The notes under the pieces: generated by a model | Databases searched by the model: none | Told to the model about the DNA's origin: nothing | Seen by the model: only the letters and a program-made list of their open reading frames with translations | Made by a program: the position numbers and the translations under genes | Assembly: GCF_003856975.1 (NCBI RefSeq) | Contig: NZ_CP033107.1 | Span: forward strand, 3,844,001 to 3,908,000 | DNA length: 64,000 bases | From: Plantibacter sp. PA-3-X8 | Lineage (GTDB): Bacteria; Actinomycetota; Actinomycetes; Actinomycetales; Microbacteriaceae | Direction of reading: 5' to 3' | Part shown: one piece after another, positions 3,909 to 18,678 of the stretch | How the letters are laid out: the number at the start of each line of letters is the position of its first letter | Position numbering within the stretch: the first letter of the stretch is position 1

Positions 3909-4954
3909 GACCGCCCCTCCGGCGAACGCATCAACCAGAGGAAGAAGGGCCCGCCGACCAAAGCCGTGAAGATCGTGAGTGGATACTCGTTCGGGCTGCC
4001 AATGGTCCGCGCGACGAGATCGACGAGGACCAGGAAGACTGCGCCGGACAGCGCGGAGACGGGCAGCAGCCGCCGATGGTCCGCTCCGACCAGCATTCGA
4101 ACCGCGTGAGGGACGATCAACCCGACGAACCCGACGCCGCCTGCGACAGCCACCGTGACGGCGGTCAAGAGCGCAGCGACAAGCAGCAGTCCGAGTCGGA
4201 ATCGACGGAGATCGACTCCCACGGCGACGGCGTCATCGTCTCCGAGAGCAAGCGCATTCAACCCGCGCGCTTGAATGAGCAGCCAAGCACCAGCTCCGAG
4301 CAGAGCGACAGTGGGCAAGGCGAGCGTTTCCCAACGAGCCCCTGCTACGCTGCCCATCATCCAGAAGAGGATGCCCCGAACCTGTCCAGGCTCGGCCTGC
4401 AACTGCGCAAAGCTGGTTCCGGCCATCGCGACGTATCCCAACGCCACTCCTGACAGCACCAAACGGATGTCCGTGAACGAACCGGACCGCTGAGCGAACG
4501 CGAAGACGAGGAGAAGGAGAACCAGCGCACCGATGAAGGCCGCCGCCGGTGTGCTGAGTCCGAACAGCGCGCCGGAGCCGAATGACATGACCAGCACTGC
4601 CCCCAACGAGGCCCCGGACGACACACCGACGATGTATGGATCTGCGAGCGGATTTCGGAGCAACCCTTGGAGTGCGGCACCGGCCAGTGCGAGGCTGGCG
4701 CCCACGACGGCGGCCATGAGAACCCGGGGGACTCGCAGCTCCCAGACGATCTGCTGGTCGAGCGGATCGAGCCCTGCCGCTCGACCGGTGAGGTTCGCAC
4801 ACAACACGGCGATGACCCGGTCTGCGGAGATGTTGACGCTACCGAAACCGATCGCGAGCAGCGCCACCACCACGGTCACGCAGACCGTCGCCGCCAACCA
4901 CCATGCGAGTGGCGCATTTCCCCCCGAACGATGCGCGGCACTGGCCGCCGTCAC
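3905..4954 (-). CDS. FecCD-family ABC transporter permease
   Basis: A 349-residue inner-membrane permease of the FecCD (BtuC-like) family with about nine to ten hydrophobic segments. It has the conserved stretches RVPRVLMAAVVGASLALAGA and G-L-I-V-P-H near the C-terminal third, the latter belonging to the loop that contacts the ATPase. The frame stays open further upstream, but that would overlap the binding-protein gene by about 200 bases. A GTG start four bases after that gene's stop gives a normal-length protein and was preferred, although its ribosome site is weak. Translation is probably coupled to the binding-protein gene before it. It is a single permease, so it should work as a homodimer. 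Confidence 0.88.
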   Translation of the reverse strand: MTAASAAHRSGGNAPLAWWLAATVCVTVVVALLAIGFGSVNISADRVIAVLCANLTGRAAGLDPLDQQIVWELRVPRVLMAAVVGASLALAGAALQGLLRNPLADPYIVGVSSGASLGAVLVMSFGSGALFGLSTPAAAFIGALVLLLLVFAFAQRSGSFTDIRLVLSGVALGYVAMAGTSFAQLQAEPGQVRGILFWMMGSVAGARWETLALPTVALLGAGAWLLIQARGLNALALGDDDAVAVGVDLRRFRLGLLLVAALLTAVTVAVAGGVGFVGLIVPHAVRMLVGADHRRLLPVSALSGAVFLVLVDLVARTIGSPNEYPLTIFTALVGGPFFLWLMRSPEGRS

Positions 4955-4958
4955 CGTC

Positions 4959-6047
4959 CTAGAACGCGTCGGGATGTGCGGCACGGGCGATCTTGTCGAT
5001 GGCTGCCGCGTTCGTAGGGCCGACGTACACCCCGTCTGAGACCTTGACGTAGTTGTTGGTCCGTGAAGCCTCCCACTGGGGGTACGCGGCAAAGATCTTT
5101 GCGGCCGCGGCGTCGAGGTCCTCCCCCGGCATGAATCCACCGACGACGAGCAGCTGCACATCGGCTGCCGCCAACTGCTCTTCAGTGATGTTCTCGGTCA
5201 GGTCGGTGTCCGCGTTGGCGAAGGAACTCGTGACTCCGGCTCGCTCGAGCACATCGTCGAAAATACCGCCGGCCATGACCGCCGGAAGTCCGTTCGCACT
5301 CATCATCGACATCCCTGGGAACACGATGAGCCCGGTCGGTCGGTCCGCTCCGTCCACGGCCAGTGAGACGGCTTCGATCTGTTGACGTTGTTCATCGACG
5401 AGTGCCTGTGCCGCGGCCTGCACGTCGAACACGTTGCCGACAAGGTTCAAGAAGTCGAAGGACGACTCGATCGTGGCAGAGGCGAACGTCTCTCGTTCGG
5501 CGTCAGTCGCATCATCCTTCCCCATGGCACAGTTGGCAGGATTCACAATGGACTCGATACCGAGACCTGCGAGTTCCTCCCGCGTCGCCTGCCCGGCATC
5601 CGCGTCGAAACCTCCAGACCAGGTCGATATCACCAGGTCTGGTTTGAGCGCCAGGAGCTGTTCAGACGGGATGTCGAAACTCCCCATGTCGAGATTCGCT
5701 GTCGGCAGTGCGTCGATCTGCTCGACGAGTTCGGGACTGTCCGACATGCCGTAGTTCTGCGCGTTGGCGAGCACAGCATCGCTCAGCCCCAGCATGACCA
5801 TCGACTCGACTTCGCTGACCGAAGCGCCGTTGAGGAGCACGACCCGCTCAGGAGCTTTCTCGAACGTCTGCTCGTATCCGCAGTTGTCGATCGTGAAGGG
5901 ATAGCTGGTCGCTCCCCCGGTCAATTTCGTTCCGTCGGTAAGAGCAGCCTGGGGTGCTGCAGCTTGCGCAGAGCAACCAGCCAGTGCCGCTAGGAGGAAT
6001 GCCGATCCGACCGCGAGCGCGGTGCGTCGTTGACGGGGAGAGTTCAT
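4959..6047 (-). CDS. Substrate-binding lipoprotein of iron-siderophore-type ABC transporter
   Basis: A 362-residue extracytoplasmic binding protein of the type III (BtuF/FhuD-like) fold. The N-terminus has a basic start, a hydrophobic segment and a lipobox LAGC with the lipidated cysteine at residue 25. The motif APERVVLLN near residue 65 is the typical first strand of periplasmic binding proteins of metal-chelate importers. It is the first gene of the operon with the FecCD permease and ATPase. Two perfect CTAC-N5-GTAG palindromes lie 130-191 bases upstream of its start, and no DtxR-like box was seen there. This places the operon with the nearby copper/redox genes in regulation. Iron-siderophore is the family default; a copper- or haem-related ligand remains possible. 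Confidence 0.88.
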   Translation of the reverse strand: MNSPRQRRTALAVGSAFLLAALAGCSAQAAAPQAALTDGTKLTGGATSYPFTIDNCGYEQTFEKAPERVVLLNGASVSEVESMVMLGLSDAVLANAQNYGMSDSPELVEQIDALPTANLDMGSFDIPSEQLLALKPDLVISTWSGGFDADAGQATREELAGLGIESIVNPANCAMGKDDATDAERETFASATIESSFDFLNLVGNVFDVQAAAQALVDEQRQQIEAVSLAVDGADRPTGLIVFPGMSMMSANGLPAVMAGGIFDDVLERAGVTSSFANADTDLTENITEEQLAAADVQLLVVGGFMPGEDLDAAAAKIFAAYPQWEASRTNNYVKVSDGVYVGPTNAAAIDKIARAAHPDAF

Positions 6048-6176
6048 GAGCGAGATCGCCTTTCACAAGACACGAGTGCGTGGATGGCCCAACCACTGAT
6101 CGACGGAAGGACCCAGAGCGTGGAGAACACCCGTATAACGCCAAGGTCGAGCACGAGTGCATGATTCACGACGCTA

Positions 6177-6193
6177 CTCTACATCATGTAGAG
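6177..6193. promoter_or_regulatory. CTAC-N5-GTAG palindromic operator, site 1
   Basis: A perfect 17-bp inverted repeat: CTCTAC, then ATCAT, then GTAGAG. It lies upstream of the ABC-importer operon on the minus strand. It resembles the TACA-N-TGTA operators of the MecI/BlaI/CopY repressor family, and a BlaI-type repressor is encoded at 14301. Binding is inferred. Confidence 0.7.
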
Positions 6194-6221
6194 CACCGAT
6201 CCACGGAGCTCGGGGGGCTTG

Positions 6222-6238
6222 TTCTACGTGTTGTAGAA
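6222..6238. promoter_or_regulatory. CTAC-N5-GTAG palindromic operator, site 2
   Basis: A perfect 17-bp inverted repeat: TTCTAC, then GTGTT, then GTAGAA. Its centre is 45 bases from the centre of site 1, about four helical turns, so two dimers could sit on one face of the DNA ahead of the ABC-importer operon. The region between 6048 and 6399 holds no supported gene. Confidence 0.7.
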
Positions 6239-6399
6239 TTAGCTCGGATGCGATGTCGTCACCTCAGGAGCGTCACGTCCAATCGGAGGCCGGCCCTTCC
6301 GCTCGTCACGGAGACACACGGGTCGGCCTCCTCCCTCAAGGTGGTGCGCATCAGGGACGATGACCCCGGCCAGGTTCGAAGACACGTCCACGCCGGCAC

Positions 6400-7248
6400 T
6401 CAGATGCCGAGGTCCCCGAGCCATTCGTGCACCGCTCGAGGCCGCAGGCCCAACAGGCTCACAGCGGACACTGAACCGTCGGTCGCCCGACTCTGAACCT
6501 GAGCACGGTGCAGGCGGTCGACGACAGACTGGCCGGACACCGCGCCCCCGTCGGCGAACGCACTGAGCTCAAGGAACGCGTCCTGCGAGATGGCCTCGTA
6601 GGCGATCTCACGTTCGAAGTAGCGACTGAAACCAGCCGCGATGTCGGGACCAGACAGCCCCGGAGAGGCACCGACCAATACGCCCCCGCCGACGTGCTGG
6701 TGGAAGAGCTGGGTGACGGTGTCCGCGACATCGAGGTGCGAGCTCCAGCGGAGCCTTACGTCACGGTGCATCGGGAGCCGGAGCACCCCCTCGCGAAGCG
6801 CTGCGTCGAAGATCTGCGGCGCCAGCAGGTTCTCAAGCGAGATCTGCGGCTCGACGACGGCGAACGGGACACCGATGGCCTGCAGCTCATGATGCAGGAT
6901 GGCGATGGCCGAACCGGAGCCGGGGCCAATTGCGTGCCCGCTCGTGGACATGACGACGCGCCTGGGTCGAGCGACGCGAATGGCTCGGCTGACCGCCATC
7001 ATCTGCGCGCGATGGTCCTCCGGTCGTCCCTCAGGGAGGTGGATGAAGACGCCACCCGAACCGCGATAGGCCCGTATCAGAGCTTCGGTGGACGACAGAT
7101 CTACGACCATGGCCGGGCCTCCGATGCGAGTGACATCTCGGACAGCCCCGATCGCGTTGAAGCCGGCAGCGGTGAGCGCGGTCACGACGGGTGCTCCTTG
7201 CGCCCCTGTTGCACCGTGCACGATGTACCTCAGCGACGGACCACTCAT
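6400..7248 (-). CDS. NmrA-like NAD(P)-binding protein
   Basis: A 282-residue short-chain-dehydrogenase-like protein of the NmrA/HSCARG group. The N-terminal dinucleotide-binding loop is GATGAQG, with a second glycine-rich strand and a hydrophobic core typical of a Rossmann fold. The classical Tyr-x-x-x-Lys catalytic pair is not apparent, as expected in NmrA-like redox sensors and quinone-reductase relatives. The start was set at MSGPSLRY, which has a GTGAGG-like ribosome site; an ATG eleven codons earlier lacks one. It is the downstream neighbour of the DUF5134 gene on the same strand, 58 bases away. The substrate is unknown; a role in redox balance within the metal island is only a guess. 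Confidence 0.75.
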   Translation of the reverse strand: MSGPSLRYIVHGATGAQGAPVVTALTAAGFNAIGAVRDVTRIGGPAMVVDLSSTEALIRAYRGSGGVFIHLPEGRPEDHRAQMMAVSRAIRVARPRRVVMSTSGHAIGPGSGSAIAILHHELQAIGVPFAVVEPQISLENLLAPQIFDAALREGVLRLPMHRDVRLRWSSHLDVADTVTQLFHQHVGGGVLVGASPGLSGPDIAAGFSRYFEREIAYEAISQDAFLELSAFADGGAVSGQSVVDRLHRAQVQSRATDGSVSAVSLLGLRPRAVHEWLGDLGI

Positions 7249-7306
7249 CGGCCTCACCGACTTCCTCTGACACTCGCGCATTGGTCGACAAGCGACGTCG
7301 GCAGGT

Positions 7307-7906
7307 TCACCACACCGGCCAGAAGCCGAGGCACATACCGATCGCCATGAGCGCCATGAGGGAGAGGTTCAGACGAACGACAGAGGGAGCCCGTCGTAGG
7401 CGGATGAAACTTGCGAGGTACCAGATCGTCGACACACCGAAGGCGACCATGAACGACACACTGATGACGTTCTCGGCCGTCCACATGAGGCCCTGCGGCG
7501 GATCCATGTGCCCCTCGTCGTGGGACATGCCGTTCATCAGGACGCCCATGACGACCATCGCTCCCATCATGAACGCATGGAACCCGACCCTGGGCCAGCC
7601 AGCGTGATGATGACTCGAGATGGGCGAATCCGGGTCCGTGTGATGAGCCGGAGCGGGAGTGCCGAAGAGCAGCACCAGATAGAACAGGGTGGCCAACGAG
7701 AAGACGATGATCTGGATGACCGGAGGAAAGACGGCCATACCCCAGGACCATGGCATCGCGAGCATGGAGAAGCTCATGACCACGTGGAAGATGTCGCTGA
7801 GCCGCCCTACTGGGTCGCGATCTCGCGCGGCCCGGATGAGGTAGCCGACGCCGGTGACGAAGAACAGGACGGTCATGATGATCGCCACGGGGGTTGGGTA
7901 CGGCAC
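7307..7906 (-). CDS. DUF5134 membrane protein, His/Met-rich
   Basis: A 199-residue integral membrane protein with about six hydrophobic segments that matches the DUF5134 family of actinobacteria. It is rich in methionine and histidine. A loop near residues 85-105 has HH and HHH clusters, and another (MSHDEGHMDPPQ) combines both residue types, suggesting metal binding. The GTG start follows GAAGGGA at good distance. It lies 86 bases downstream of the PepSY gene on the same strand and is probably in its transcript, under the divergent promoter around 9508. DUF5134 genes are often found beside copper genes, so a role in copper handling at the membrane is likely but unproven. Confidence 0.75.
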   Translation of the reverse strand: MPYPTPVAIIMTVLFFVTGVGYLIRAARDRDPVGRLSDIFHVVMSFSMLAMPWSWGMAVFPPVIQIIVFSLATLFYLVLLFGTPAPAHHTDPDSPISSHHHAGWPRVGFHAFMMGAMVVMGVLMNGMSHDEGHMDPPQGLMWTAENVISVSFMVAFGVSTIWYLASFIRLRRAPSVVRLNLSLMALMAIGMCLGFWPVW

Positions 7907-7992
7907 GGTGTCCCTTCAGAACGTGGATACGGCGAACGTCGAGCAGATGCTGCGGGAGGTGGCGGCTTGGGATCGAGGTGTTCCTGAAACCA

Positions 7993-9438
7993 TCACGCTC
8001 GCGTCGCACGTCGTTGGAATTCCCCGACCAGCACGTCCGTGACGACGAAGGCGGCGAGACTCAGACCGAGCAGCGGAAGGAACAGCCCGATCACCAGCCC
8101 CCCGGCCAGGATCGCCAGCACTCCCCACCAGGGTGCGCGTGCAAGCACCTGTGAGGCCGGCGGCTTCCCGACGAGGCGCCCGCCGCCCGTTGGACGGCGC
8201 TTCCACCACATCAGGTACCCGAAGATGATCATTGCCATGATCCCGGCCGCGAGCACGAACAACGCCAGTTGATTGGGGAGCCCGAACATCGATCCCATGT
8301 GGGTGTCGATGCCCCAGCGCGTGAGCTTCGCCGCCAGTGGGAATTCCGAGAAATCCGTGCGGTCCGTCACTTGCATCGTCGCACCGTCGATGGCGACCGC
8401 GTCTACTTCCGTCGGAAAGCTGCGTTGAATCTCCTGGACCACCCACGCCGAGCCTGCCTCTGCGGGGGGCCTGATCTCCACCAACCCCGTGTTGACGTTG
8501 ACGCCTCGGGCGACAGCCAGTGCTCGCTCGAAATCCTCGGGAGAGGGTGCAGGAGCCGGAGTACCGCCGTCGGACGCACCGCCCCCGCCATGCCCAGCGT
8601 GCTCTCCGCTTGGAGATGAACCGCCGGAGAGGTCCGTCTGTACTGACGGAGTCGACCAATCGGACGCTTGACGAAGCGTGCTGAAGTTTCCCCCGCCCCA
8701 TTGCGACCACGAAATGCCCGTGGCCGAGAGGAACAGAGCGCCGATGAGTAGCCAGACTCCAGTGGATGCATGCCACGAGAAGATGCGGCGATATCCGCGC
8801 GCCGAACGATTGGGGCGGAGGAAGTCTCTTTTGGAGCGACTCCTCCGTATACGCGCTATCCACAGCCCGAGGCCTGCCAGGGCGATGATGCCAAGCCAGG
8901 ATGCGGCGAGCTCGCTGTACAGTCGTCCCGCATCGCCCAGGTGGAGATTGCGATGCAACTGATCGATCCATGTGCGGATCGGGAGAGCGCCACTCGTCCC
9001 ATAGGCGGTGAGGTCCCCGCGGATCTCCGCGGTCGAAGGATCGACGAAGATCGCTCTCGTCTCACTCTCCCCGAGACGGCCGTCCGCGTACATCACGCGG
9101 GTGGTATCACCCGGGCGAGGTGCCGGCCGCACTGCGACGATGGTCTCTGACCCACCGACAAAGGCCTCCGAGGCAGCAATCTGCTCGGCAAGTGGCACGG
9201 TGTGACCACGCACCGGCGCATGCAGCTGCTGGGCGTAGACCATCTGCTCCAACTGAGGCGTCAACGCATACAGAGCCCCACTGCCCGCAGCGACGAGGAT
9301 GAACGGCCCCACGAAGATGGCGGCGTAGAAATGCAGGCGGAGGAGAAAGGACGGAAACCAGCTGCGTCGGCGGGGCAGCCCCGCCGGAGGGCCCGCATCA
9401 GCGCCGCGTGCGTCCTGGCGGTCGTGCAACCTGGTCAA
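7993..9438 (-). CDS. PepSY-associated TM-region protein
   Basis: A membrane protein of about 481 residues with the layout of PepSY-TM proteins: an N-terminal segment RLHFYAAIFVGPFILVAAGS, a large extracellular PepSY-type domain, a central pair of membrane helices around LGIIALAGLGLWIARIRR and LLIGALFLSATGISW, and two C-terminal helices. A long loop near residues 275-300 is Gly/Ser/His-rich (GEHAGHGGGG) and could bind metal. The preferred start is a TTG preceded by AAGGAG six bases upstream; the longer open frame would begin inside the 33-bp operator palindrome at 9508. Family members are linked to ferric reduction and to copper or haem metabolism. It is transcribed divergently from the CopZ/CopA genes. 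Confidence 0.82.
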   Translation of the reverse strand: MTRLHDRQDARGADAGPPAGLPRRRSWFPSFLLRLHFYAAIFVGPFILVAAGSGALYALTPQLEQMVYAQQLHAPVRGHTVPLAEQIAASEAFVGGSETIVAVRPAPRPGDTTRVMYADGRLGESETRAIFVDPSTAEIRGDLTAYGTSGALPIRTWIDQLHRNLHLGDAGRLYSELAASWLGIIALAGLGLWIARIRRSRSKRDFLRPNRSARGYRRIFSWHASTGVWLLIGALFLSATGISWSQWGGGNFSTLRQASDWSTPSVQTDLSGGSSPSGEHAGHGGGGASDGGTPAPAPSPEDFERALAVARGVNVNTGLVEIRPPAEAGSAWVVQEIQRSFPTEVDAVAIDGATMQVTDRTDFSEFPLAAKLTRWGIDTHMGSMFGLPNQLALFVLAAGIMAMIIFGYLMWWKRRPTGGGRLVGKPPASQVLARAPWWGVLAILAGGLVIGLFLPLLGLSLAAFVVTDVLVGEFQRRATRA

Positions 9439-9507
9439 TACCTTCTCCTTCGGGCGCGTGGAGTCCCCGAGTTCCATGAGGATCTGCGGAAACCGAGAGC
9501 GTGCTGT

Positions 9508-9540
9508 CGCATGTGCTCTACAAATAGTAGAGCACATGCG
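9508..9540. promoter_or_regulatory. Perfect 33-bp palindrome containing CTAC-N5-GTAG, site 3
   Basis: Two 14-base arms (CGCATGTGCTCTAC and its exact complement) flank a five-base centre AAATA. It contains the CTAC-N5-GTAG core shared by the other four sites, but the symmetry extends much further. It lies 70 bases upstream of the PepSY start and 112 upstream of the CopZ-like gene, in a divergent promoter region. Confidence 0.75.
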
Positions 9541-9593
9541 GCGACCCTCCGTGGCAACGGAGCATCGGACAGGCGGGGTGACATACGCGCGTA

Positions 9594-9606
9594 CTACTGC
9601 TTGTAG
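9594..9606. promoter_or_regulatory. CTAC-N5-GTAG operator, site 4
   Basis: A CTAC-TGCTT-GTAG core, 46 bases upstream of the CopZ-like start codon and 74 bases centre-to-centre from site 3. Symmetry outside the core is poorer than at sites 1-3. Its position fits an operator for the rightward copper operon. Confidence 0.65.
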
Positions 9607-9651
9607 AGTAGACGAGGGCAGCTGCCCTCCATCGACTGAGAGAGGTACCTC

Positions 9652-9876
9652 ATGTCCGACATCACGACCACCTACTCGGTATCAGGTATGACGTGCGAGC
9701 ATTGCGTCGCGTCCGTGACCGAAGAGCTCTCCGAGATCTCCACAGTCCACGCGGTGGACGTCCACCTCGAATCCGGATCCGTGCAGGTGTCATCGACCGC
9801 GCCGCTCAGCGAAGCCGCCATCCGGAACGCCATCGAAGGCGTCGGCTACACCTTCAACGGCCTCGCCTCAAGCTGA
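9652..9876 (+). CDS. copZ: Heavy-metal-associated domain protein (CopZ-like copper chaperone)
   Basis: A 74-residue single HMA domain protein. It carries the metal-binding loop GMTCEHC near residues 12-18 and the ferredoxin-like beta-alpha-beta-beta-alpha-beta pattern ending in VGYTF. Such proteins carry Cu(I) in the cytosol and hand it to CopA-type ATPases; a CopA-type gene lies two genes downstream. GAGAGAGG gives a good ribosome site. It is the first gene of the rightward operon, with a CTAC-N5-GTAG palindrome directly upstream, which supports metal-responsive control. Confidence 0.92.
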   Translation: MSDITTTYSVSGMTCEHCVASVTEELSEISTVHAVDVHLESGSVQVSSTAPLSEAAIRNAIEGVGYTFNGLASS

Positions 9877-9885
9877 GGCGCCTCC

Positions 9886-11937
9886 GTGAACGACATCGCA
9901 GCGCGGGAGCGACCGAGCCATGTGCAGGCGCTTCGGCGTCCTTTGACCGCTGCGGTGGCACTGTCGGCGCTCATCGTGATCGGGGTGATCCTGGCGGTCG
10001 GTGATTCGAGTTACGTCGACCTCAGCAGAGGCGACCCGGGGCCAACCGTGTCTCTTGGGACCGGCGTCCTTCGGCTGATCGCCGAGTGGGCGGGCATCCT
10101 CTGCGTGAGTGCGCTCGTGTACGTGGCGTTCCTGCAGGTCCGAAGCGGGCGAGAACGAACCGTTGTCGAGAACATTGCCGAGCTCTCCGTCGTTCGGGTG
10201 AGCGCACTCGTCTGGACGCTCGCCGGAGGTGGGCTGGTCGTCTTCGACGCAGCGGATGCGAACGGGGTGACGCTCGAGCGCGTGCTGTCTCCCGGCGGCC
10301 TGCCCTACCTCGTGAGCGCGATGGATCTCCCGAAAGCCTGGATCCTCGTCACCGTCGCGGCGTTCATCATCTTCTGCGGCGCGTGGTGGACGCGATCCTG
10401 GACGACCACACTCGTCTTAGCGGCCGTGGCGGTCCTCGCCTTGATCAGTCCAGTCCTGGTTCATCAGGTCCTGGTCGGGCCCGGCCATGACTTCGGCAGT
10501 GATCTCGCAACCTTCGGCGTGCCGGCAGCCGGGATCGTAATCGGTGTGCCGATCGTACTCATCCTCGTCACGACGAGAGGCTTTGGGCTCCCGCCACGGA
10601 CGCTGCGGCGCGCCCGAGCCCTACTCCGAGGCGCCTGGGCCGTCGCGTTCGCGGTGGAGATCGGTTTGCTCCTCTTCAAGACCGTGTTGCTGAGATTCGC
10701 CCTCACACCGACAGCAGGACTGATCGCCGTCCGGCTCCTCGTCCTCCTGCTCGTCGCAGCGCTCGCGTCAGCACTCATTGCTCGGCTTCTGGATGCTTCC
10801 TCTCCGGACGCGTCGAGGGCGGTCGCCCTCCGGCACCTCTGGCCGCTTGCCCTGACGGCCGCCGTCTACATCGGCGTCACCGTCGCGATGACGAGGATCC
10901 CCCCGCCCCAGTACTTCATGCCCGTCAGCGCCATGGAAGTGCTGTTCGGCTTCGAGATGCTAAAGGCCCCAACGCTTGCCATCCTCTTCGGCGAATGGAG
11001 AGGCAACATCTTGTTCGCCGTCGTCGGTGCTGTGGCGGTCATCCTGTACCTCGGTGCCGTCATCAGGCTCCGCCGCCGCGGGGACGCATGGCCGGTCGGC
11101 CGCACCGTGGCCTGGGTCCTCGGTTGGGCCGTCATCGTTTTCGCGACGTCCTCCGGATTCGGATCCTATTCCGGCCCGTCGTTCAGCATCCACATGATGG
11201 TGCACATGGGTCTGAACATGTTCGGCCCAGTCCTCCTCGCGATGGGCGGCGTGGTCACCCTCCTCCTTCGGGCTACGCCCCCCGCCAAGCGACGAGACGT
11301 GGCTGGACCACATGAATGGTTGATCGACATCATCGGCAGCCCGATCGCCCGATTGGTGTTCAATCCGATACTCGTTTTCCTCGTATTCGTCGGGTCGTAC
11401 TACGCGTTGTACCTGTCGCCGTTGTTCGAGGAGGCGATGCGCTTCCACTGGTCGCATCAACTCATGAACATTCACTTCCTGGTCTCCGGGTACCTCTTCT
11501 ACTCGCTGATCATCGGCGTGGATCGCCCGCCGCGGCCGTTACCGCACCTCGGCAAACTCGGGTTCGTCCTCGCAGCGATGCCGTTCCACGCGTTCTTCGG
11601 AGTGATCGTGATGACGAGCACCACACTGATCGCCGGAAACTTCTACGCCTACATGAGGGCGCCCTGGCACGACGACTTGCTCGCCGACCAGCACCTCGGC
11701 GGGGGCATCGCCTGGGCTGCAGGAGAAATCCCGTTGCTCATCGTGGTGATTGCACTGTGCCTGCAATGGGCGCGTCAGGATGACCGAGAAGCGAAACGCA
11801 AGGATCGACACCTCGATTCCGGGGTGGACGAGGACTTCGACGCGTACAACGACATGCTGAAACACCTCGCCGACCGAGGTCGGCTCCAGCCCCAGCAGCC
11901 GACGGCATCCGCTCAACGAAAGGACACTGGATCGTGA
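9886..11937 (+). CDS. CopD-CtaG fusion membrane protein
   Basis: A 683-residue polytopic membrane protein. The N-terminal half (about residues 1-330) has eight or so hydrophobic segments of the copper resistance D (CopD/YcnJ) type. The C-terminal half (about 370-650) matches caa3-type cytochrome oxidase assembly factor CtaG, with conserved HMMVHMGLNMFGPVLL, HWSHQLMNIHFLVSGYLF and PFHAFFGV stretches rich in His and Met. Fused CopD-CtaG proteins are common in actinobacteria and are thought to move copper across the membrane for oxidase assembly or detoxification. The GTG start lies 9 bases after the CopZ-like gene, and the stop overlaps the CopA start in a GTGA, so the three genes are translationally coupled. 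Confidence 0.87.
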   Translation: MNDIAARERPSHVQALRRPLTAAVALSALIVIGVILAVGDSSYVDLSRGDPGPTVSLGTGVLRLIAEWAGILCVSALVYVAFLQVRSGRERTVVENIAELSVVRVSALVWTLAGGGLVVFDAADANGVTLERVLSPGGLPYLVSAMDLPKAWILVTVAAFIIFCGAWWTRSWTTTLVLAAVAVLALISPVLVHQVLVGPGHDFGSDLATFGVPAAGIVIGVPIVLILVTTRGFGLPPRTLRRARALLRGAWAVAFAVEIGLLLFKTVLLRFALTPTAGLIAVRLLVLLLVAALASALIARLLDASSPDASRAVALRHLWPLALTAAVYIGVTVAMTRIPPPQYFMPVSAMEVLFGFEMLKAPTLAILFGEWRGNILFAVVGAVAVILYLGAVIRLRRRGDAWPVGRTVAWVLGWAVIVFATSSGFGSYSGPSFSIHMMVHMGLNMFGPVLLAMGGVVTLLLRATPPAKRRDVAGPHEWLIDIIGSPIARLVFNPILVFLVFVGSYYALYLSPLFEEAMRFHWSHQLMNIHFLVSGYLFYSLIIGVDRPPRPLPHLGKLGFVLAAMPFHAFFGVIVMTSTTLIAGNFYAYMRAPWHDDLLADQHLGGGIAWAAGEIPLLIVVIALCLQWARQDDREAKRKDRHLDSGVDEDFDAYNDMLKHLADRGRLQPQQPTASAQRKDTGS

Positions 11938-14222
11938 ACTTCAGCGACGACTACCTCGAACTGAACGTCAGCGGAATGACCTGCGCCGCGTGCGCCGGCC
12001 GAGTCGAACGAAGCCTCAACAAGTTGGACGGCGTGACCGCCTCGGTGAACTACGCGACCGAACGAGCCGTGGTCGCCGGGCTCACGCCGGCGGAGTCCGA
12101 ACGTGCACTCGAAGCCATCACCAAGGCCGGCTACGGTGCGGTGGTCCGCACTGAGGGCGATGACGACTGGAACCGCCGTGCCACGGCGGACCGGATCGCC
12201 TCCCTGAGACGGCGCCTCACACTCTCCGCGATACTCACCATCCCCCTCTGCGACCTGACCATCATCCTGGCCCTCGTCCCCGATCTGAGATTTCCCCTGT
12301 GGGAACTCGTCTGCATCTTGCTGGCGTTGCCCATCGTCTTCTGGTGCGCATTGCCGTTCCACCGTGCCACGATCAGAAATCTGCGCCATGGCACCGTGAG
12401 CATGGACACCTTAGTATCGCTCGGCATCGTCGCCTCCTTCGGATGGGCGGTGACGACTCTCCTCATCGGCGGATCGGACGAGCCAGGCTATTGGCTCGGA
12501 TTCGGGATGACCCCGGCCGGGGCGGACTCGATCTACTTGGACGTTGCGGCAGGCATGACGACTTTCCAACTCGCGGGTCGATACTTCGAGACGCGTTCGC
12601 GCCGACGGGCGGGCGACGTCCTCTCAGCACTCGGCAACTTGGCCGCCACGGAAGCGAGAGTGCTGAGATCTGGCGTGGAACACGTCATCCCGACCATCGA
12701 GCTCCGCAAGGGCGACACGATCATCGTCCTCGCCGGCGAGACGATCGCCGCGGACGGCACCGTCGTCGCCGGTTCCGGTGTCGTCGATGCCAGCATGATG
12801 ACTGGCGAGCCGGTTCCGATAGAGGTCGTCCAGGGATCCCCCGTCGTCGGCGGCACGATCAACACCTCTGGCCGACTGACAGTGGAAGCGACCTCTGTGG
12901 GAACCAACACGCAGCTGGCACAGATGGCGTCGCTGGCTGAACAGGCCCAGGAACGAAAAGCCCGAGTACAGAAACTCGTCGACCGGATCATCACCGTCTT
13001 CGTTCCTGCGGTCATCTCACTGTCACTCGTCGTCGGATTCGCGTGGCTTGCGTTCGGAGCAGCACCTCGAGACGCCTTCGGCACGGCCATTGCGGTCCTC
13101 ATCATCGCTTGTCCGTGCGCTCTCGGCCTCGCAACCCCCACCGCGCTCATGGTCGGCGTCGGTCGAGGGGCCCAGATCGGAATCCTCATCAAGGGACAGG
13201 ACGCACTGGAAGCAAGTGGGCGAATCGACACCGTCGTCTTCGACAAGACCGGAACGGTGACGACGGGCCAAATGCGTGTTGCCGACGCCGTGATCGCAGG
13301 CTCTCACATGGAACGTGAGGTTCTCGCCATGGCACGGTCCGTCGAATCCGCATCGGAGCATGCGATCGCGAAAGCGCTGGTGGAGTACGCCGATGGACTC
13401 GGCGCCCATCATCTCGACGTCACCGACTATAAGACGCTCGCAGGGCTGGGTGCCCGAGGGAGGGTCAACGACAAGGAGGTCCTTGTCGGGAGCGAGAAGC
13501 TCGTACGCGCACACGGAGCGAGCCTCGATGACCTGCCGATCGGTGACCCGGAACACACAGCCGTGTACGTCGTCATCGACGGCACGACTGCTGCACGATT
13601 CGTGCTGACGGATGAGATCAAGCGCTCCGCTCGACCGACGATTGATCGACTCCGGAACCTCGGACTCCGAACCATCCTCCTCAGTGGAGACGCGACGACT
13701 GCGACGGAGCGGGTCGGCGCGCTCGTCGGTGTCGACGAGGTGATCGCCGGGGTCCTCCCGACTGAGAAGGCGGCCACGATCAGTCGACTCCAAGAGGAGG
13801 GACACGTCGTCGCGATGGTGGGTGATGGCATCAACGACGCAGCGGCGCTCGCGACCGCAGATCTCGGCCTCGCCATGGTTGAAGGCACCGACGTGGCGAT
13901 GAAGTCGGCGGACATTATCCTCGTGCGTGATGATCTCGGTGTCGTCGTCGATGCGGTCCAGCTGTCCCGGAAGACACTGAGCACCATCAAGGGCAACCTC
14001 ATCTGGGCGTTCGGCTACAACCTGGCGGCTATCCCCATCGCGGCAGCTGGTCTGCTCAACCCACTGATCGCCGCGGCCGCAATGAGCGTCTCGTCGATCC
14101 TGGTCATCTCGAACAGTCTGCGGCTGCGGAACTACCAGCCGACTCCCCCGACCAGGCCTGAGCGGGGGGTCGCACCGTCCGCTCGTGGTCAGCAGAACGC
14201 TGCCGGAGCTGGTGTGATCTGA
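11934..14222 (+). CDS. copA: Copper-exporting P1B-type ATPase
   Basis: A 762-residue heavy-metal P-type ATPase. In order it shows one N-terminal HMA domain with GMTCAACAGR (residues about 14-23), membrane helices, the actuator TGEP near 290, the CPC transmembrane metal site in CPCALGLATP near 393, the phosphorylated aspartate in DKTGT near 436, and the hinge GDGINDAAAL near 630. CPC with Asn and Met residues in the last helices (GYNLAAIP, MSVSS) is the Cu(I) subtype pattern. The usual HP dipeptide of the nucleotide domain reads SEHAIA here. It exports cytosolic copper using ATP, presumably loaded by the upstream CopZ-like protein. It overlaps the preceding gene by four bases and is followed by a strong terminator hairpin. 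Confidence 0.93.
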   Translation: MNFSDDYLELNVSGMTCAACAGRVERSLNKLDGVTASVNYATERAVVAGLTPAESERALEAITKAGYGAVVRTEGDDDWNRRATADRIASLRRRLTLSAILTIPLCDLTIILALVPDLRFPLWELVCILLALPIVFWCALPFHRATIRNLRHGTVSMDTLVSLGIVASFGWAVTTLLIGGSDEPGYWLGFGMTPAGADSIYLDVAAGMTTFQLAGRYFETRSRRRAGDVLSALGNLAATEARVLRSGVEHVIPTIELRKGDTIIVLAGETIAADGTVVAGSGVVDASMMTGEPVPIEVVQGSPVVGGTINTSGRLTVEATSVGTNTQLAQMASLAEQAQERKARVQKLVDRIITVFVPAVISLSLVVGFAWLAFGAAPRDAFGTAIAVLIIACPCALGLATPTALMVGVGRGAQIGILIKGQDALEASGRIDTVVFDKTGTVTTGQMRVADAVIAGSHMEREVLAMARSVESASEHAIAKALVEYADGLGAHHLDVTDYKTLAGLGARGRVNDKEVLVGSEKLVRAHGASLDDLPIGDPEHTAVYVVIDGTTAARFVLTDEIKRSARPTIDRLRNLGLRTILLSGDATTATERVGALVGVDEVIAGVLPTEKAATISRLQEEGHVVAMVGDGINDAAALATADLGLAMVEGTDVAMKSADIILVRDDLGVVVDAVQLSRKTLSTIKGNLIWAFGYNLAAIPIAAAGLLNPLIAAAAMSVSSILVISNSLRLRNYQPTPPTRPERGVAPSARGQQNAAGAGVI

Positions 14223-14229
14223 CGGATGT

Positions 14230-14258
14230 GGCCCGTCCCATACCGGACGGGCCGCTTT
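14230..14258 (+). terminator. Terminator after copA
   Basis: A 9-bp perfect stem, GGCCCGTCC with GGACGGGCC, around a 6-base loop, followed by a short T run (GCTTT). It lies 8 bases after the copA stop and separates copA from the BlaI gene. Confidence 0.8.
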
Positions 14259-14300
14259 GAGAAATATAGAATGACTTAGCGAACGAGCGACGGAGGACTC

Positions 14301-14690
14301 ATGGCGGGAGAACGTCTACGAGGGCGCGGCGAGCTGGAGAACACGGTGCTCAGGATCCTCTGGGAGAGTGACGAGGCGCTGCGCGTGCGCGAGATCCAGG
14401 AACGTTTCCCCGAGAAGCAGCCTGCGATCACCACGCTGCTGACCGTGCTCGAACGGCTGCGGTTGAAGGGGAGTGTCCTACGAGAGGCGGACGGGCCGAA
14501 AGGGAACCGCTTCGCCGCCAGCACCAGTGAATCCGGGTACGCCGCAGACGCCATGCTGAGTGCCTTGACCGGGGTCGGCGATCGATCCGCTGCGCTGGTG
14601 CACTTCGCTGGAGACCTCGATGACGACGACGTGGAGCTCCTCCGGTCAGCGCTCGACGCCAAAGCACGCCGCTCACGCCGTCAGACCTGA
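14301..14690 (+). CDS. BlaI/MecI/CopY-family transcriptional repressor
   Basis: A 129-residue winged-helix protein. The start MAGERLRGRGELENTVLRIL and the segment PAITTLLTVLERLRLKG correspond to the BlaI DNA-binding fold (helix 1 with W near residue 21, recognition helix TTLLTVLERL). The C-terminal part is the shorter dimerisation domain, the region cleaved in this family. GGAGGA precedes the ATG. It is followed three bases later by an M56 metalloprotease gene, the standard repressor/sensor-protease pairing. In mycobacteria such pairs act outside beta-lactam resistance. Five palindromes of the family type lie within 8.2 kb, near an ABC importer and the copper genes, so it is the best candidate for their regulator. 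None of the palindromes is directly upstream of this gene. Confidence 0.9.
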   Translation: MAGERLRGRGELENTVLRILWESDEALRVREIQERFPEKQPAITTLLTVLERLRLKGSVLREADGPKGNRFAASTSESGYAADAMLSALTGVGDRSAALVHFAGDLDDDDVELLRSALDAKARRSRRQT

Positions 14691-14693
14691 GCG

Positions 14694-15527
14694 ATGTTCC
14701 TCGTTCTCGCCTTATTGGGCTATGCCGCTCTCACGATCGTCATGGCTCCGCTCGTCCTCACACGGGGAATGTGGCGACTTCGATTTCCACGGACGGCACT
14801 TTTGCTCTGGCATGGCGCTTTCCTCAGCGGCATAGCGGCAGCTCTCATCAGCATGGTCGTCGCGGTCGTTCTTGCTGTCGGAGTCCACACCGCTGTACCC
14901 GACGGTCGGACCAATGTCCTGGAGCCGACGGTTATCGTCCTGGCTGCATGGCTGGCGCTAGGGACTGTCGGCGGATTGATCGCGCTGGTCTTCGCGAGAG
15001 CAGAGCCGCTCTTCGAGCTTGACCGTGAGGCCGAGGCATCGTTCTCGGAATTGCTTGGATCAGGCTTCGCGCGCGTGGAACACGTCGGCAACCTCACCGT
15101 GAGGTACATCGACTCCTCCCTGCCGGTCGCGTGCACGACACCGGGACGTCGACCGGAGGTGATCGTCTCGTCGCGCCTGGAGTATGCACTCACCCCTTGG
15201 GAGCTGCGGGCCGTCATCGAACACGAGCGCGCTCATGTCAGACATCGGCATGCATTCGCCAAGCGCCTCGCTCTACTCAACTCAGCCTGTCTCCCGACCG
15301 TCCGCGGCGCGACACAGTTCAAGCGTTCCACCAACCTGCTGATTGAACTCATCGCAGACGACAGCGCGGCTCGCGTCTGCGGGAGCGATCAGGTGGCCGC
15401 TGCTCTCGCACGCGTTGCGGAGCTGAGCGGAAGTGCCGGAACGGCCGTGAGATCCGAGCGGCTCCTCCAGTTGCCGGCGAAGCGACTGAGTGCCGCTGGC
15501 CGTCGGCTCTTGGTTGCGGGCGGTTGA
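14694..15527 (+). CDS. M56-family metalloprotease (BlaR1-like, no sensor domain)
   Basis: A 277-residue membrane zinc protease. It has two hydrophobic segments near residues 1-22 and 35-65, one near 78-100, the zinc motif HERAH at 177-181 and a downstream acidic ELIADDSA that can supply the third ligand. The family (BlaR1/MecR1, HtpX-like) cleaves its cognate BlaI-type repressor. Unlike BlaR1 it has no extracellular penicillin-binding domain, so its signal must be sensed by the membrane part or a partner. It starts three bases after the BlaI gene and is surely co-transcribed with it. A CTAC-N5-GTAG palindrome follows 28 bases after its stop. Confidence 0.88.
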   Translation: MFLVLALLGYAALTIVMAPLVLTRGMWRLRFPRTALLLWHGAFLSGIAAALISMVVAVVLAVGVHTAVPDGRTNVLEPTVIVLAAWLALGTVGGLIALVFARAEPLFELDREAEASFSELLGSGFARVEHVGNLTVRYIDSSLPVACTTPGRRPEVIVSSRLEYALTPWELRAVIEHERAHVRHRHAFAKRLALLNSACLPTVRGATQFKRSTNLLIELIADDSAARVCGSDQVAAALARVAELSGSAGTAVRSERLLQLPAKRLSAAGRRLLVAGG

Positions 15528-15554
15528 GCGTCCTGATCGCAGCCCTCGCCATCC

Positions 15555-15569
15555 TCTACAATATGTAGA
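15555..15569. promoter_or_regulatory. CTAC-N5-GTAG palindromic operator, site 5
   Basis: A 15-bp perfect inverted repeat: TCTAC, then AATAT, then GTAGA. It lies between the M56 protease gene and a small membrane-protein frame that begins two bases later, so it may control that frame or mark the end of the regulon. Confidence 0.65.
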
Positions 15570-15571
15570 AG

Positions 15572-15793
15572 TTGTTCGGCGTCCACCGCGAGTCGGACGG
15601 GGAGGGAAGTCGCATCTCCATACTCCTGGTTCTCACTCAGCTCATCGCCCTTTCTGGACTCATCATCCTCATCGGATTGGGATCACCTCCGAGGAACGAT
15701 GACGTGCCGGACCCCACGTTCGTCGAGGAGATCTCGGGATACGCCGAATCACTTCGCCGATGTCTGGCGCGGCTCAGGAGGCGGGACCACTGA
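15572..15793 (+). CDS. Small single-pass membrane protein, unknown
   Basis: A possible 73-residue protein with one strongly hydrophobic segment (LLVLTQLIALSGLIILIGLG, about residues 19-38) and a charged C-terminal tail ending in RRRDH. The only usable start in this frame is a TTG directly after palindrome site 5, with no good ribosome site. A GGGGAGGGA stretch lies further inside but is not followed by a normal start codon. No family was recognised. Its place after the M56 protease and the operator suggests a small accessory protein of the regulon, but this is inference and the frame may be spurious. Confidence 0.42.
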   Translation: MFGVHRESDGEGSRISILLVLTQLIALSGLIILIGLGSPPRNDDVPDPTFVEEISGYAESLRRCLARLRRRDH

Positions 15794-15880
15794 GGTGGCG
15801 ACCCAATACTAGAGTCGCCTCAGAGCTCACCAGACTCCTCAGCGCGACCCGTCGAGCTCCCGAGCGGGCCGCGCTGAGTG

Positions 15881-15898
15881 GTCGGAGATTACTCCGAC
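15881..15898. terminator. Hairpin between convergent genes
   Basis: A 7-bp perfect stem, GTCGGAG with CTCCGAC, with an ATTA loop. It lies between the rightward copper block and the leftward glycosidase gene and could terminate both. There is no clear T run. Confidence 0.5.
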
Positions 15899-15912
15899 GG
15901 AGAAACTGGCGA

Positions 15913-17385
15913 TCAGTAGACGACGTCGAACGTGGCATCCGCTCGATCAAGTACCGTCGAGATCCGCGTGAGCTCCAGTTGACCGTTGATGTGTCGGATG
16001 TAGCGATCCGGGTAGTTCACCGACCTGAAGGAGTCCCATCCGGCGTCGGCAAGCCCCGGGACTCTCGTGAAGGTTGCGTCTGCGCGGTAGCCGGCTGTCC
16101 CGTCGTTCGACGCCAGCACCAGCTTGAATCCCGAGTGACGGAGGAAATGCCCCGGGTAGTTCACGGACTCCAACGAGACCGCCGAGGGGTCCGACAATCC
16201 AGCGACGATCCGCCACTGCGAGTCAGCCTGAGGATCGAACGGAACCGCATCGATACGGGCTTTGAGACCCGCATGCCTGACGTACGAGCCGGGGTAGTTG
16301 AACGACTTCAGTCGCTCGCTTTGCGATCCGCCGAAGCGTCCGAGCAAGCGATCATAGTCGGCACGGGCGATCGGCTTGATGCTGTTGTGCTTCGACCCGA
16401 GCGGTGCGGTGAAGTCGGCACTGCTGACGGCGTTCCACGTTCCAGTCGTGATGTCGCCCTGCCAGCTGACGAACGTGCTGTTGGGGCAATAGTTGTCACC
16501 CCACAACGTCCAGGAACTAGGGTCGGTCAACGATCGCACCAGTGTCGGAGCCTCAGCACATCCGGGTAGGTTCGGGGCCTCCGAATATTGACGGAAACTG
16601 CCCGGCTCGAGCGTTGACGACCTCGCTCCCATGAGGCCTGCGTCGGGGTTCGGCCCTCGATAGTAGAGGTAGTTCTGGCCCCCGACACCCGTCACGACGT
16701 CGGAGTCGATCACACCGCCCCGTCCTCCGTTGTCGAAGAAGCGGACAGCCGGTGACGCCGTCCGGAAATCGGTGGTGTAGGAGACCATGATGACGCCTTC
16801 TGGCCCACCTGTCGGCGAGGCCGAGTAGGTGATCCCGTATTGCTGACGAACGGGGTCCCAATGGACAGCCGGCGCCCAGGTGTATGACCCGGGGTTCGCC
16901 GAGTTCACGCTCAGCAGCCGATCGGCCGACCAGGTGACGAGGTCGGGCGATGTCCAGACATGCAGGTTGGGATTCGCTTGGCCAAAGGGCACACCGACCT
17001 CGAGATCTGTCGCGAGGAGCACCCAGGTGCCGTCCTGCAGTCGATGGATGAACGGGTCGCGTATTCCGCCCGTACCCGCCGTCGGGTCGAGGATCGGCCG
17101 GTTGTCGTTGAGTGCCTGCCACTGCCTGCCATCGAGACTTACGGCCAGATGGACGTTGTTGGAGTTCCCGGTGCCGTCGAGGCTCTCCCGGAAGTAGGTC
17201 ATGACGTAGGCCGCGTCGGCGTCCGCAGCTGCTGCCGGGGATACCGGGCTTCCGGCTGTCACGAGGCCAGCAAGTATCGCGACGCTGCTGGCGAGCGCGA
17301 GGAGGGATCCTCGGCGCAGCCTGGTCGGCAGATGTCCGGTGTACTGACGCTGTCGCAGAACGTCCGGAGTGTGAAGTGGGAGCAT
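15913..17385 (-). CDS. Secreted GH43-like glycosidase with AbfB domain
   Basis: A 490-residue exported protein. The N-terminus has a twin-arginine-like RLRRGS and a hydrophobic segment ending in SPAAAADA, read as a signal peptide. Residues about 60-340 look like a five-bladed propeller hydrolase of the GH43 type (GIRDPFIHRLQDGTWVLLAT with the Asp of the first blade, and SYTWAPAVHWD). The last 140 residues contain repeated SVNYPGHFLRH- and SVNYPDRYIRH-type units, the beta-trefoil arabinose-binding AbfB (CBM42) domain. It probably removes arabinose from plant arabinan or arabinoxylan outside the cell. The start follows GGAAGGA; a longer frame has none. A remnant of another AbfB domain lies 74 bases upstream. 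Confidence 0.83.
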   Translation of the reverse strand: MLPLHTPDVLRQRQYTGHLPTRLRRGSLLALASSVAILAGLVTAGSPVSPAAAADADAAYVMTYFRESLDGTGNSNNVHLAVSLDGRQWQALNDNRPILDPTAGTGGIRDPFIHRLQDGTWVLLATDLEVGVPFGQANPNLHVWTSPDLVTWSADRLLSVNSANPGSYTWAPAVHWDPVRQQYGITYSASPTGGPEGVIMVSYTTDFRTASPAVRFFDNGGRGGVIDSDVVTGVGGQNYLYYRGPNPDAGLMGARSSTLEPGSFRQYSEAPNLPGCAEAPTLVRSLTDPSSWTLWGDNYCPNSTFVSWQGDITTGTWNAVSSADFTAPLGSKHNSIKPIARADYDRLLGRFGGSQSERLKSFNYPGSYVRHAGLKARIDAVPFDPQADSQWRIVAGLSDPSAVSLESVNYPGHFLRHSGFKLVLASNDGTAGYRADATFTRVPGLADAGWDSFRSVNYPDRYIRHINGQLELTRISTVLDRADATFDVVY

Positions 17386-17458
17386 GCTGGTTCCTTCCAA
17401 GGAGTTGCGTGATCGAGCGGTGTCGGGTCGAGAGCGCGTCGCGTTCCGACGCCCCTGA

Positions 17459-17662
17459 TCAGTCGATGGCGAACGTCGCATCGGCCGAACCGACCGTGCC
17501 GCTCACCCGCTCCACGTACAGGCGATAGTCGCGGTGCCGGAGGTAGGTTCCGGGTGTGGCGATGGACTCGAATGACGTCTTCGCGGCGTCCGCAAGCCCT
17601 GCACGAAGCGTGAACGAAGCCGCGGCCGCGAACGTCGGTGTGGACGACGCTGTCCGGATCAA
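17459..17662 (-). pseudogene. Remnant of an AbfB (CBM42) domain
   Basis: A short frame of about 67 residues (TTG start, stop codon four codons earlier) whose last 50 residues read as one AbfB unit: SFTLRAGLADAAKTSFESIA, then TYLRH, then SADATF. No catalytic part and no signal peptide are present. The neighbouring intact gene ends in the same kind of unit, so this is best read as the 3' end of a duplicated or replaced glycosidase gene that lost its front. Confidence 0.65.
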
Positions 17663-17751
17663 TGACAGCGCTCACGCAGGGCTGGAGATCGCCCTCCTCG
17701 ACCTGTTGCCGGTGCCGCGCATGACTCTGTGGCACGCCACTACCCGGCCGC

Positions 17752-18678
17752 TCACGAACTGACGTTCAGGAGCGAGAGGAGCAGGGGGATGGTCACACAA
17801 GCGAGGACCGTCTGGACACCGGTGATGGACGCCATCAGCCGCGCGTCTCCGCCCATGCGGGACGCGAGTACATAGGCCGACGGCGCCGTAGGGACGGCCG
17901 TGATGAGCAGGATGCTCGTCAGGGTCGGTCCGGTGATCCCGAAGGTGAAGGCGATGGCGACTGCGCCGAGCGGGAGCGCGATGAGCTTCACGATGGCCGT
18001 GATGCCGATATCGAGGATGTCTCGTCGGGAAAATGACCAGCGAAGCGCCGCACCGGAGATGAGTGTGCCGCAGACGAGGGCCGGAGCTGCGAGAAGCATG
18101 ATCGTCGAGGAGACCGGGCCAGGCAGTGATACCCCGGAGAGATTGACGATGAGGCCGAGGGCGACGCCCTGGATGAGTGGGTTCACGAGCATCTCTTTCC
18201 ACAGTGGCGGTTTGCGGCTGTCTCTTAGGCGGTCACCGAACCTGGACAGCGCACTGACGGAGATCACGTTGACGAGGGGCACGACGACCGCGCTGGCCAG
18301 AGCAAAGGTCGCCGTCCCCTCTGCCCCGTGGAGCGACGAGGCGAAGACGAGCCCGATATAGGTATTGATCCGGATCGAGCCTTGCACGAGTGACGTCAGC
18401 TGTGGACCGCCCGCGCGCAGCGGCCGCCGGAGAACGACGATCACTCCTGTTGCGACGAGGATGGGCGCAGCGACGCTCACAGCAAGCGGTCCGAGGGGGA
18501 CCGATCCGAGGTCCGTCGACGCCACAGAGGTGACGAAGAGGGCAGGGGTGAAGACCCGGTAACTCATCCACTCGAGGCCGCGCCAGAAGCTCGGGTCGCT
18601 GACGAACCAACGTCGGATGGCCGCCCCACCTCCCAAGAGCAGGAGTATCGGGACGATCGCCGTTGCCACACCAGTCAT
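17752..18678 (-). CDS. AEC-family (auxin efflux carrier-like) transporter
   Basis: A 308-residue membrane protein with about ten hydrophobic segments in two halves, split near residue 155 by the charged loop RFGDRLRDSRKPP. The N-terminal VATAIVPILLLLGGGAAIRR and the conserved N-x-Y-I-G-L stretch in helix 4 fit the AEC family. Members move organic acids, amino acids or similar anions, and the substrate cannot be predicted. It is divergent from a CGNR zinc-finger regulator gene, with 27 bases between the starts, so the two probably share a control region. Confidence 0.82.
   Translation of the reverse strand: MTGVATAIVPILLLLGGGAAIRRWFVSDPSFWRGLEWMSYRVFTPALFVTSVASTDLGSVPLGPLAVSVAAPILVATGVIVVLRRPLRAGGPQLTSLVQGSIRINTYIGLVFASSLHGAEGTATFALASAVVVPLVNVISVSALSRFGDRLRDSRKPPLWKEMLVNPLIQGVALGLIVNLSGVSLPGPVSSTIMLLAAPALVCGTLISGAALRWSFSRRDILDIGITAIVKLIALPLGAVAIAFTFGITGPTLTSILLITAVPTAPSAYVLASRMGGDARLMASITGVQTVLACVTIPLLLSLLNVSS

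Follow-up and report, generated by a model that had tools for sequence, protein, structure and literature searches.

A BlaI-type repressor, a BlaR1-like protease and a shared palindrome: a predicted copper-starvation and oxidase-maintenance regulon in Plantibacter sp. PA-3-X8

The stretch of DNA analysed here (hereafter, the window) comprises 64,000 nucleotides of the genome of Plantibacter sp. PA-3-X8 (contig NZ_CP033107.1, positions 3,844,001 to 3,908,000, forward strand). It contains a block of copper-related genes in which a BlaI-type repressor and a BlaR1-like membrane protease are encoded, and in which the palindromic core CTAC-N5-GTAG is repeated. A preliminary description of this DNA, made from the letters alone (the sequence-only reading), had placed five such cores at 6179–6191, 6224–6236, 9518–9530, 9594–9606 and 15556–15568; all five were verified, and the window holds no others. 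Its gene calls were likewise backed by Pfam and NCBIfam. The features of the block, numbered by position in the window, are as follows (ORF, open reading frame; aa, amino acids; SBP, substrate-binding protein).

6178–6192: operator-like palindrome TCTAC-N5-GTAGA; the SBP start (6047) lies 131–145 bp downstream
6223–6237: operator-like palindrome TCTAC-N5-GTAGA, the second site 5′ of the SBP operon
9517–9531: operator-like palindrome TCTAC-N5-GTAGA in the divergent gap between the PepSY_TM and CopZ genes; ATG 9477 lies about 40 bp downstream
9593–9607: operator-like palindrome ACTAC-N5-GTAGA; the CopZ start (9652) lies about 45 bp downstream
15555–15569: operator-like palindrome TCTAC-N5-GTAGA, located after the M56 stop codon and before a small membrane ORF
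3144–3908, minus strand: ATPase of a FecCD-type ABC importer system (Pfam ABC_tran; the NCBIfam models shown were below their cut-offs)
3905–5161, minus strand: FecCD permease (Pfam FecCD, 319 bits)
4959–6047, minus strand: substrate-binding lipoprotein (Peripla_BP_2)
6400–7281, minus strand: NmrA-like protein (Pfam), 25 bp behind the DUF5134 gene on the same strand
7307–7906, minus strand: DUF5134 membrane protein, Met- and His-rich (18 Met, 9 His)
7993–9477, minus strand: PepSY_TM protein (Pfam), start shifted from 9537
9652–9876, plus strand: CopZ-like HMA copper chaperone, 74 aa (Pfam, NCBIfam)
9886–11937, plus strand: CtiP-like membrane protein, 683 aa, with C-terminal Caa3_CtaG (Pfam)
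11934–14222, plus strand: CopA-like P1B-type copper ATPase (TIGR01511, 491 bits, cut-off 397)
14301–14690, plus strand: BlaI-type repressor, 129 aa (PF03965), no cysteine
14694–15527, plus strand: sensorless BlaR1-like membrane metalloprotease, carrying HERAH and ELIAD motifs
15572–15793, plus strand: 73-aa one-helix membrane ORF (TTG start uncertain)

The repressor matched the Pfam family Penicillinase_R with 60 bits (cut-off 22.6), and it was the only BlaI-family protein found in the genome; the PF03965 search gave a positive result in Corynebacterium glutamicum, used as a control. Its best match in the PDB (E 6e-11) was 2g9w, labelled there as a “conserved hypothetical protein”, which we take to be BlaI of Mycobacterium tuberculosis. 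The adjoining 277-aa protein scored 19.9 bits with Pfam M56, below the cut-off of 31, and 27 bits with M48, above the cut-off of 20.3. A domain search detected no beta-lactam sensor domain in it. The earlier description of a BlaI repressor and a sensorless protease in one block was borne out, the latter as an M56/M48-type protein. Residues H177, E178 and H181 (HExxH) and the downstream E218 are invariant in 16 sequences, and hydrophobic segments are present. In the CtiP-like protein, Caa3_CtaG (269 bits) covers residues 386–631, and no CopD part was matched in a Pfam search at E 0.001; this copy is distinct from two other, less similar copies in the genome. The NmrA-like gene may be co-transcribed with the DUF5134 gene.

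The five cores in the window compare with 0.09 expected, and no shuffle out of 100 reached that number. Genome-wide (4.08 Mb), the core was found 14 times, compared with 205 occurrences of the reversed pattern; an even spread of the 14 sites would place 0.03 in the 9.4-kb block, where there are five. The extended consensus proposed earlier, roughly YTCTAC-N5-GTAGAR, held at four sites (TCTAC-N5-GTAGA at 6179, 6224, 9518 and 15556) and failed at 9594, where the sequence is ACTAC-N5-GTAGA. The placement of all sites outside supported genes, also proposed, holds if the PepSY_TM gene starts at ATG 9477 and does not if the longest ORF (start 9537), which overlaps the site at 9518, is used. An exact search of the genome for TCTAC-N5-GTAGA gave five sites: four in the block and one at G000:C1:3833230, 10.8 kb to the left of the window. 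The latter is the only one of the nine core sites outside the window to carry the T...A flanks (the other eight lack them), and about 30 bp downstream of it is the ATG with which a second importer operon starts, composed of Peripla_BP_2, FecCD permease and ABC ATPase genes. Since the reversed extended form also occurs three times genome-wide, the count of five is ordinary by itself, and it is the clustering, not the count, that constitutes the signal. A scan allowing one mismatch gave 63 places against 132 for the reversed control, and such sites are therefore mostly background. Chance as the source of the palindromes was ruled out by the window shuffles and the genome-wide counts; a motif frequent and random in the genome, named beforehand as counter-evidence, was not what the search revealed (14 core and 5 extended sites). 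The sequence ACTACCGCTGGTAGT, present in the window's genome (L009) and in six relatives, looks like a conserved gene end that gives rise to false motif matches.

The distribution of BlaI and the motif was examined in 150 genomes from the family of the window's genome, the Microbacteriaceae. A BlaI relative was present in 89 and the exact motif in 86; both occurred in 79 genomes, BlaI only in 10, the motif only in 7 and neither in 54 (Fisher 1.2e-22, a value that ignores shared ancestry). For the reversed pattern, the corresponding numbers were 85, 4, 54 (pattern only) and 7 (p 0.12). Among the 10 genomes with BlaI only, variant-flank sites were found in at least G006, G018, G067 and G100, and in two BlaI-lacking genomes (L074, L075) no target was seen at the sites. 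Two sampled genomes of the same genus contain neither BlaI nor the motif. A scan of named genomes with CtiP provided a second data set, the best 80 of 532 loci, in which BlaI and the W-flanked motif occurred together at 21 loci, BlaI only at 2, the motif only at 2 and neither at 55 (Fisher 5.9e-15, with the same disregard of ancestry). The 21 loci include Sinomonas, Brachybacterium, Tessaracoccus, Flexivirga, Brevibacterium and Microlunatus; the Amycolatopsis and Nocardia loci among these 80 had neither BlaI nor the motif. FecCD was present in 12 of the 80.

To 40 of the 89 BlaI-bearing genomes belong the 40 BlaI loci that were fetched (in L114 and L115, BlaI was placed by a genome-wide search for BlaI relatives). 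At 22 of them, from 18 genera, BlaI and cydA diverge from a shared gap that holds one to four sites (exact in 21, variant in L109). Eight loci carry the island-type CtiP; in seven of these, CopZ/CtiP, DUF5134 or importer genes are accompanied by sites, one flank of which is often variant. The remaining 10 show neither arrangement, and five of these have sites just 5′ of BlaI. Where BlaI is unlinked, the motif was still found at cydA in five loci, and in two more with a variant flank. In a 60-row BlaI tree, 20 cyd-adjacent and 31 copper-linked rows were split by one change (99/97), with 9 rows ungrouped, the copper-linked label being partly a matter of ascertainment, as many such rows came from the CtiP scan; this split indicates two BlaI groups that go with the same operator. 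Island-type CtiP (at least 492 bits; next best 301) was present in 12 of the 150 genomes, all of which contain a BlaI relative, within 10 kb in 10 cases. Some CtiP-like match was obtained in 148 of the 150, and the two same-genus genomes gave only matches of about 32% identity. A frameshift at the C terminus of the M56 protein of the window, considered on account of the extra terminal hydrophobic stretch of the cyd-type proteases, need not be assumed: most copper-type relatives end without one.

Distal sites in BlaI-bearing relatives were examined at 62 exact-motif loci, a subset of the matches listed, sister genomes included. By an uncontrolled count, 30 of these lay at genes for copper, haem, cytochrome, quinone, ATP synthase or nitric oxide functions. 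Target identities were assigned in many cases by Pfam and in the rest by tblastn or by eye. The most frequent target (six loci, site 17–23 bp upstream) was a histidine-phosphatase gene adjoining a thioredoxin-like gene, a pair read as a cytochrome c maturation cluster. It was followed by cydA (5 loci), Hmp (3), and YcnI, hemA, PCuAC, ctaC, the atpI/atpB junction and PLDc_N beside a thiamine pyrophosphate (TPP) enzyme gene read as menD (2 each), with single occurrences of ctaB, a ferric-reductase-like gene, CopZ/SBP and the ATPase of an ABC-3-type metal transporter. Recurrent neighbours of the motif in relatives were YcnI, CopZ, PCuAC and DUF5134. A DUF308 membrane protein was a further recurrent target, at four loci (L067, L175, L183, L185) from several genera. 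For most targets with a settable start, the site lies 13–92 bp upstream (63–172 bp for cydA; the ctaC, ctaB and atp starts are uncertain), distances that fit repression at the promoter. Among the loci outside these classes, recurrence within a genus was seen for L141/L142, L169–L171, L187/L193 and L151/L152; in the congeneric L141 and L142, an unassigned 260-aa protein is encoded 146 bp from the motif.

Taken as computed, the sites, their clustering, the BlaI-motif linkage and the target identities argue strongly that the palindrome is the BlaI operator. The earlier proposal of BlaI control, by way of this palindrome, over copper/redox genes and a chelate importer agrees with the comparative genomics: a single BlaI, its co-occurrence with the motif, and the motif ahead of BlaI or at the same copper genes in relatives. 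Binding, repression, the copper or oxidase signal, proteolysis and the importer substrate are what we infer beyond this. We consider it likely that BlaI represses a copper-starvation and oxidase-maintenance regulon, and that the BlaR1-like protease lifts repression when copper or the oxidase is short. BlaI would bind TCTAC-R-N3-Y-GTAGA palindromes that overlap or adjoin promoters and would thereby repress copper-acquisition genes: the two FecCD-type importers, PepSY_TM/DUF5134, CopZ-CtiP-like-CopA and the small membrane protein. When copper, or a copper-loaded terminal oxidase, becomes short, the adjoining protease would remove or cleave BlaI; such a release is probable because the neighbouring gene is BlaR1-like with a conserved HExxH. 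The freed genes would then import and reduce copper and deliver it to cytochrome aa3; through this operator, related BlaI proteins would control the induction of cytochrome bd oxidase and of further genes of the respiratory chain.

The predicted targets accord with a shortage of copper or a failure of the oxidase, since they cover import (FecCD, YcnI, CopC), reduction (PepSY_TM), delivery (CopZ, CtiP-like, PCuAC) and backup (cyd), and the targets in relatives likewise point to a shortage of copper or a failing haem-copper oxidase as the signal. Published work, cited here by PMC number and from excerpts, contains several related observations. Copper starvation induces CrpH, a PepSY_TM protein of Bordetella pertussis that supports haem-copper oxidases (PMC13038864), and the PepSY_TM protein of the block is, by this family role, a possible metal reductase. 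Copper deprivation of chalkophore-less M. tuberculosis induces the cydABDC, qcrABC and ATP synthase genes, mimicking oxidase inhibition, and the excerpts name no transcription factor for the induction of the cytochrome bd and ATP synthase genes (PMC12140626). In a sigC mutant grown in copper-deficient medium, predicted BlaI-regulon members were up (PMC7924339).

Some relatives carry copper islands of wider content. In G056 (2.9 Mb), all five W-flanked sites lie on the BlaI contig. In G121, paired variant sites separate CopZ-CtiP from the divergently oriented TauD and FcoT genes (L207:7053–8476), and an AMP-binding enzyme and a carrier/thioesterase protein are encoded about 25 kb from TauD/FcoT, closer to BlaI. 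The same site pair precedes CopZ in Agrococcus casei LMG 22410 (L235). Genes of the kinds seen in G121, FcoT and TauD among them, belong to the mycobacterial nrp cluster, and the pair in G121 is a possible chalkophore pathway in Microbacteriaceae. The nrp cluster makes diisonitrile chalkophores (PMC9600254). The BlaI of G056 (G056:C61) is 90–97% identical to those of Brachybacterium tyrofermentans, Leucobacter sp. 7(1) and Frigoribacterium sp. JB110 (L229, L230, L231), and a His-rich SBP is identical between G056 and G121 over the 130 residues compared. These identities point to recent transfer of the copper island, perhaps in cheese rinds, a habitat of such bacteria; a word search of a paper on gene transfer in cheese (PMC5526665) gave no occurrence of “copper”.

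The GC content of the block is about 0.64, compared with 0.65–0.70 in nine other fetched stretches of the genome, and the block may have been acquired; its left flank is low too. Positions 1–20000, with a GC content below that of the rest of the window, perhaps form one mobile island. Look-alikes of the UvrA-like protein (404–3115), the NmrA-like protein, an AEC-type transporter and a CGNR-like protein are found around BlaI in G121 (the last two by eye), and the 73-aa ORF resembles, again by eye, a small ORF 3′ of PCuAC-DyP in that genome. Adjoining the block, 15913–17481 encodes an AbfB-domain protein with a weak GH43 match, arabinofuranosidase-like. A PF00144 beta-lactamase-family membrane protein, without the motif, is encoded 6 kb to the right of the block (21524–23578).

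BlaI might instead answer respiratory-chain failure, nitric oxide or general redox stress, with the copper genes as one output and copper shortage not the primary signal. Sites at Hmp (three loci), cydA, hemA, quinone, ATP synthase and presumed cytochrome c maturation genes speak for this explanation, as does the similarity of the responses to oxidase inhibition and copper deprivation in M. tuberculosis (PMC12140626). However, the window and seven of the eight copper-linked loci have sites at copper import or delivery genes, and CopZ, YcnI, PCuAC and DUF5134 recur; we regard general stress as an unlikely primary signal, though one that deserves some weight. Excess copper is a second candidate, in which high copper would free the DNA of BlaI and turn on CopZ-CopA efflux. 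CopZ-CopA is the classical gene pair for copper excess, here both genes lie within the regulated operon, and CopY, a copper/zinc sensor with a Cys-x-Cys site, belongs to the same BlaI/MecI-like superfamily. CopY-type sensing through cysteines is nevertheless impossible, because the 129-aa BlaI contains none, and the operon includes a CtiP-like assembly factor while importers stand under the same operator, which makes this explanation improbable; the genome further encodes a distinct CsoR and another P1B ATPase, about 1.2 Mb from each other, which leave the matter undecided. That the palindrome belongs to another regulator, with an indirect link to BlaI, would account for its presence in BlaI-lacking genomes, but the sites in the BlaI–cydA gap and the co-occurrence in two data sets leave very little room for it. 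A beta-lactam or cell-wall stress regulon of the classical BlaI/BlaR1 kind, suggested by the adjoining BlaR1-like gene and the nearby PF00144 gene, is scarcely credible given a protease without sensor domain and a window in which the motif occurs neither near the PF00144 gene nor anywhere else outside the block.

Several observations weigh against the copper-starvation regulon favoured here. No palindrome lies upstream of BlaI itself in the window, and none was found at the cydA gene of the window's own genome. The exact motif is absent from 10 of the 89 genomes with BlaI and present in 7 of the 61 without it, and the copper-linked locus L102 has no site. The control palindrome also leaned towards BlaI in the best 80 of 532 loci, much more weakly (6 both, 17 BlaI only, 1 palindrome only, 56 neither). 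Neither such a target nor DUF308 was found at 28 of the 62 distal loci, several of which lie inside ORFs. The disregard of ancestry in the Fisher values, the choice of the 62 loci from lists of limited length with sister genomes among them, and the uncontrolled count of target classes weigh on the same side, as does the classical association of CopZ-CopA with excess. As regards the ligand of the importers, a search for FcoT gave a match in one of the 150 genomes (G121) and none in that of the window.

As a tentative extension, which we find possible but rather doubtful, the sensorless BlaR1-like protease and BlaI could form a general actinobacterial sensor-regulator of copper starvation and haem-copper-oxidase failure, governing in some species the synthesis of chalkophores and the import of copper chelates, in other species the cytochrome bd backup, and in a few both sets of functions; the FecCD importers of the block would then take up copper-chelate complexes. 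A partial literature search gave no earlier report of a link between BlaI and copper acquisition, of an operator common across families or of a chalkophore-like target. With one operator joining copper acquisition, oxidase assembly and bd backup, the question of which regulator drives the M. tuberculosis response to copper deprivation becomes directly testable in harmless relatives. This operator also puts in a new light an orphan BlaI/M56 pair of the sort commonly taken for a beta-lactam system, yields candidate copper-chelate importers together with an operator for finding others, and offers, in a small repressor tied by textbooks to penicillin resistance, a testable answer to how copper shortage is sensed.

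Comparison with known systems revealed partial likenesses. Unlike Staphylococcus aureus BlaR1-BlaI, the system of the window has a protease without beta-lactam sensor and no motif at the beta-lactamase gene. Like CopY, its BlaI is predicted to govern CopZ and CopA genes, but it lacks a Cys-x-Cys site, has a protease partner and has targets that fit import and delivery. The chalkophore (isonitrile lipopeptide) system differs in that the window's genome has no FcoT match. The ycnKJI copper-uptake operon of Bacillus subtilis (PMC8424229) also contains a repressor-governed YcnI-type protein (DUF1775), and in relatives of the window YcnI follows the motif; the repressor is YcnK there and would be BlaI here. 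In Corynebacterium glutamicum, CtiP, CopC and PCuAC deliver copper to the aa3 oxidase (PMC9145763); the Caa3_CtaG membrane protein, PCuAC and CopC are shared, whereas the excerpts of that paper describe no BlaI operator and the CtiP-like gene of the window is an extra copy. The presence of BlaI at respiratory genes is already known from M. tuberculosis, where BlaI (Rv1846c) is reported at the cytochrome bd and ATP synthase promoters and BlaR (Rv1845c) has no sensor domain (PMC5473688, citing Sala 2009 for the promoters). The excerpts and listings consulted mention no copper arm for that BlaI. The sensorless protease is common to both systems, and for relatives of the window's BlaI the motif occurs at cydA and at atp genes; in the genome of the window, in contrast, the exact motif marks copper acquisition genes rather than cyd.

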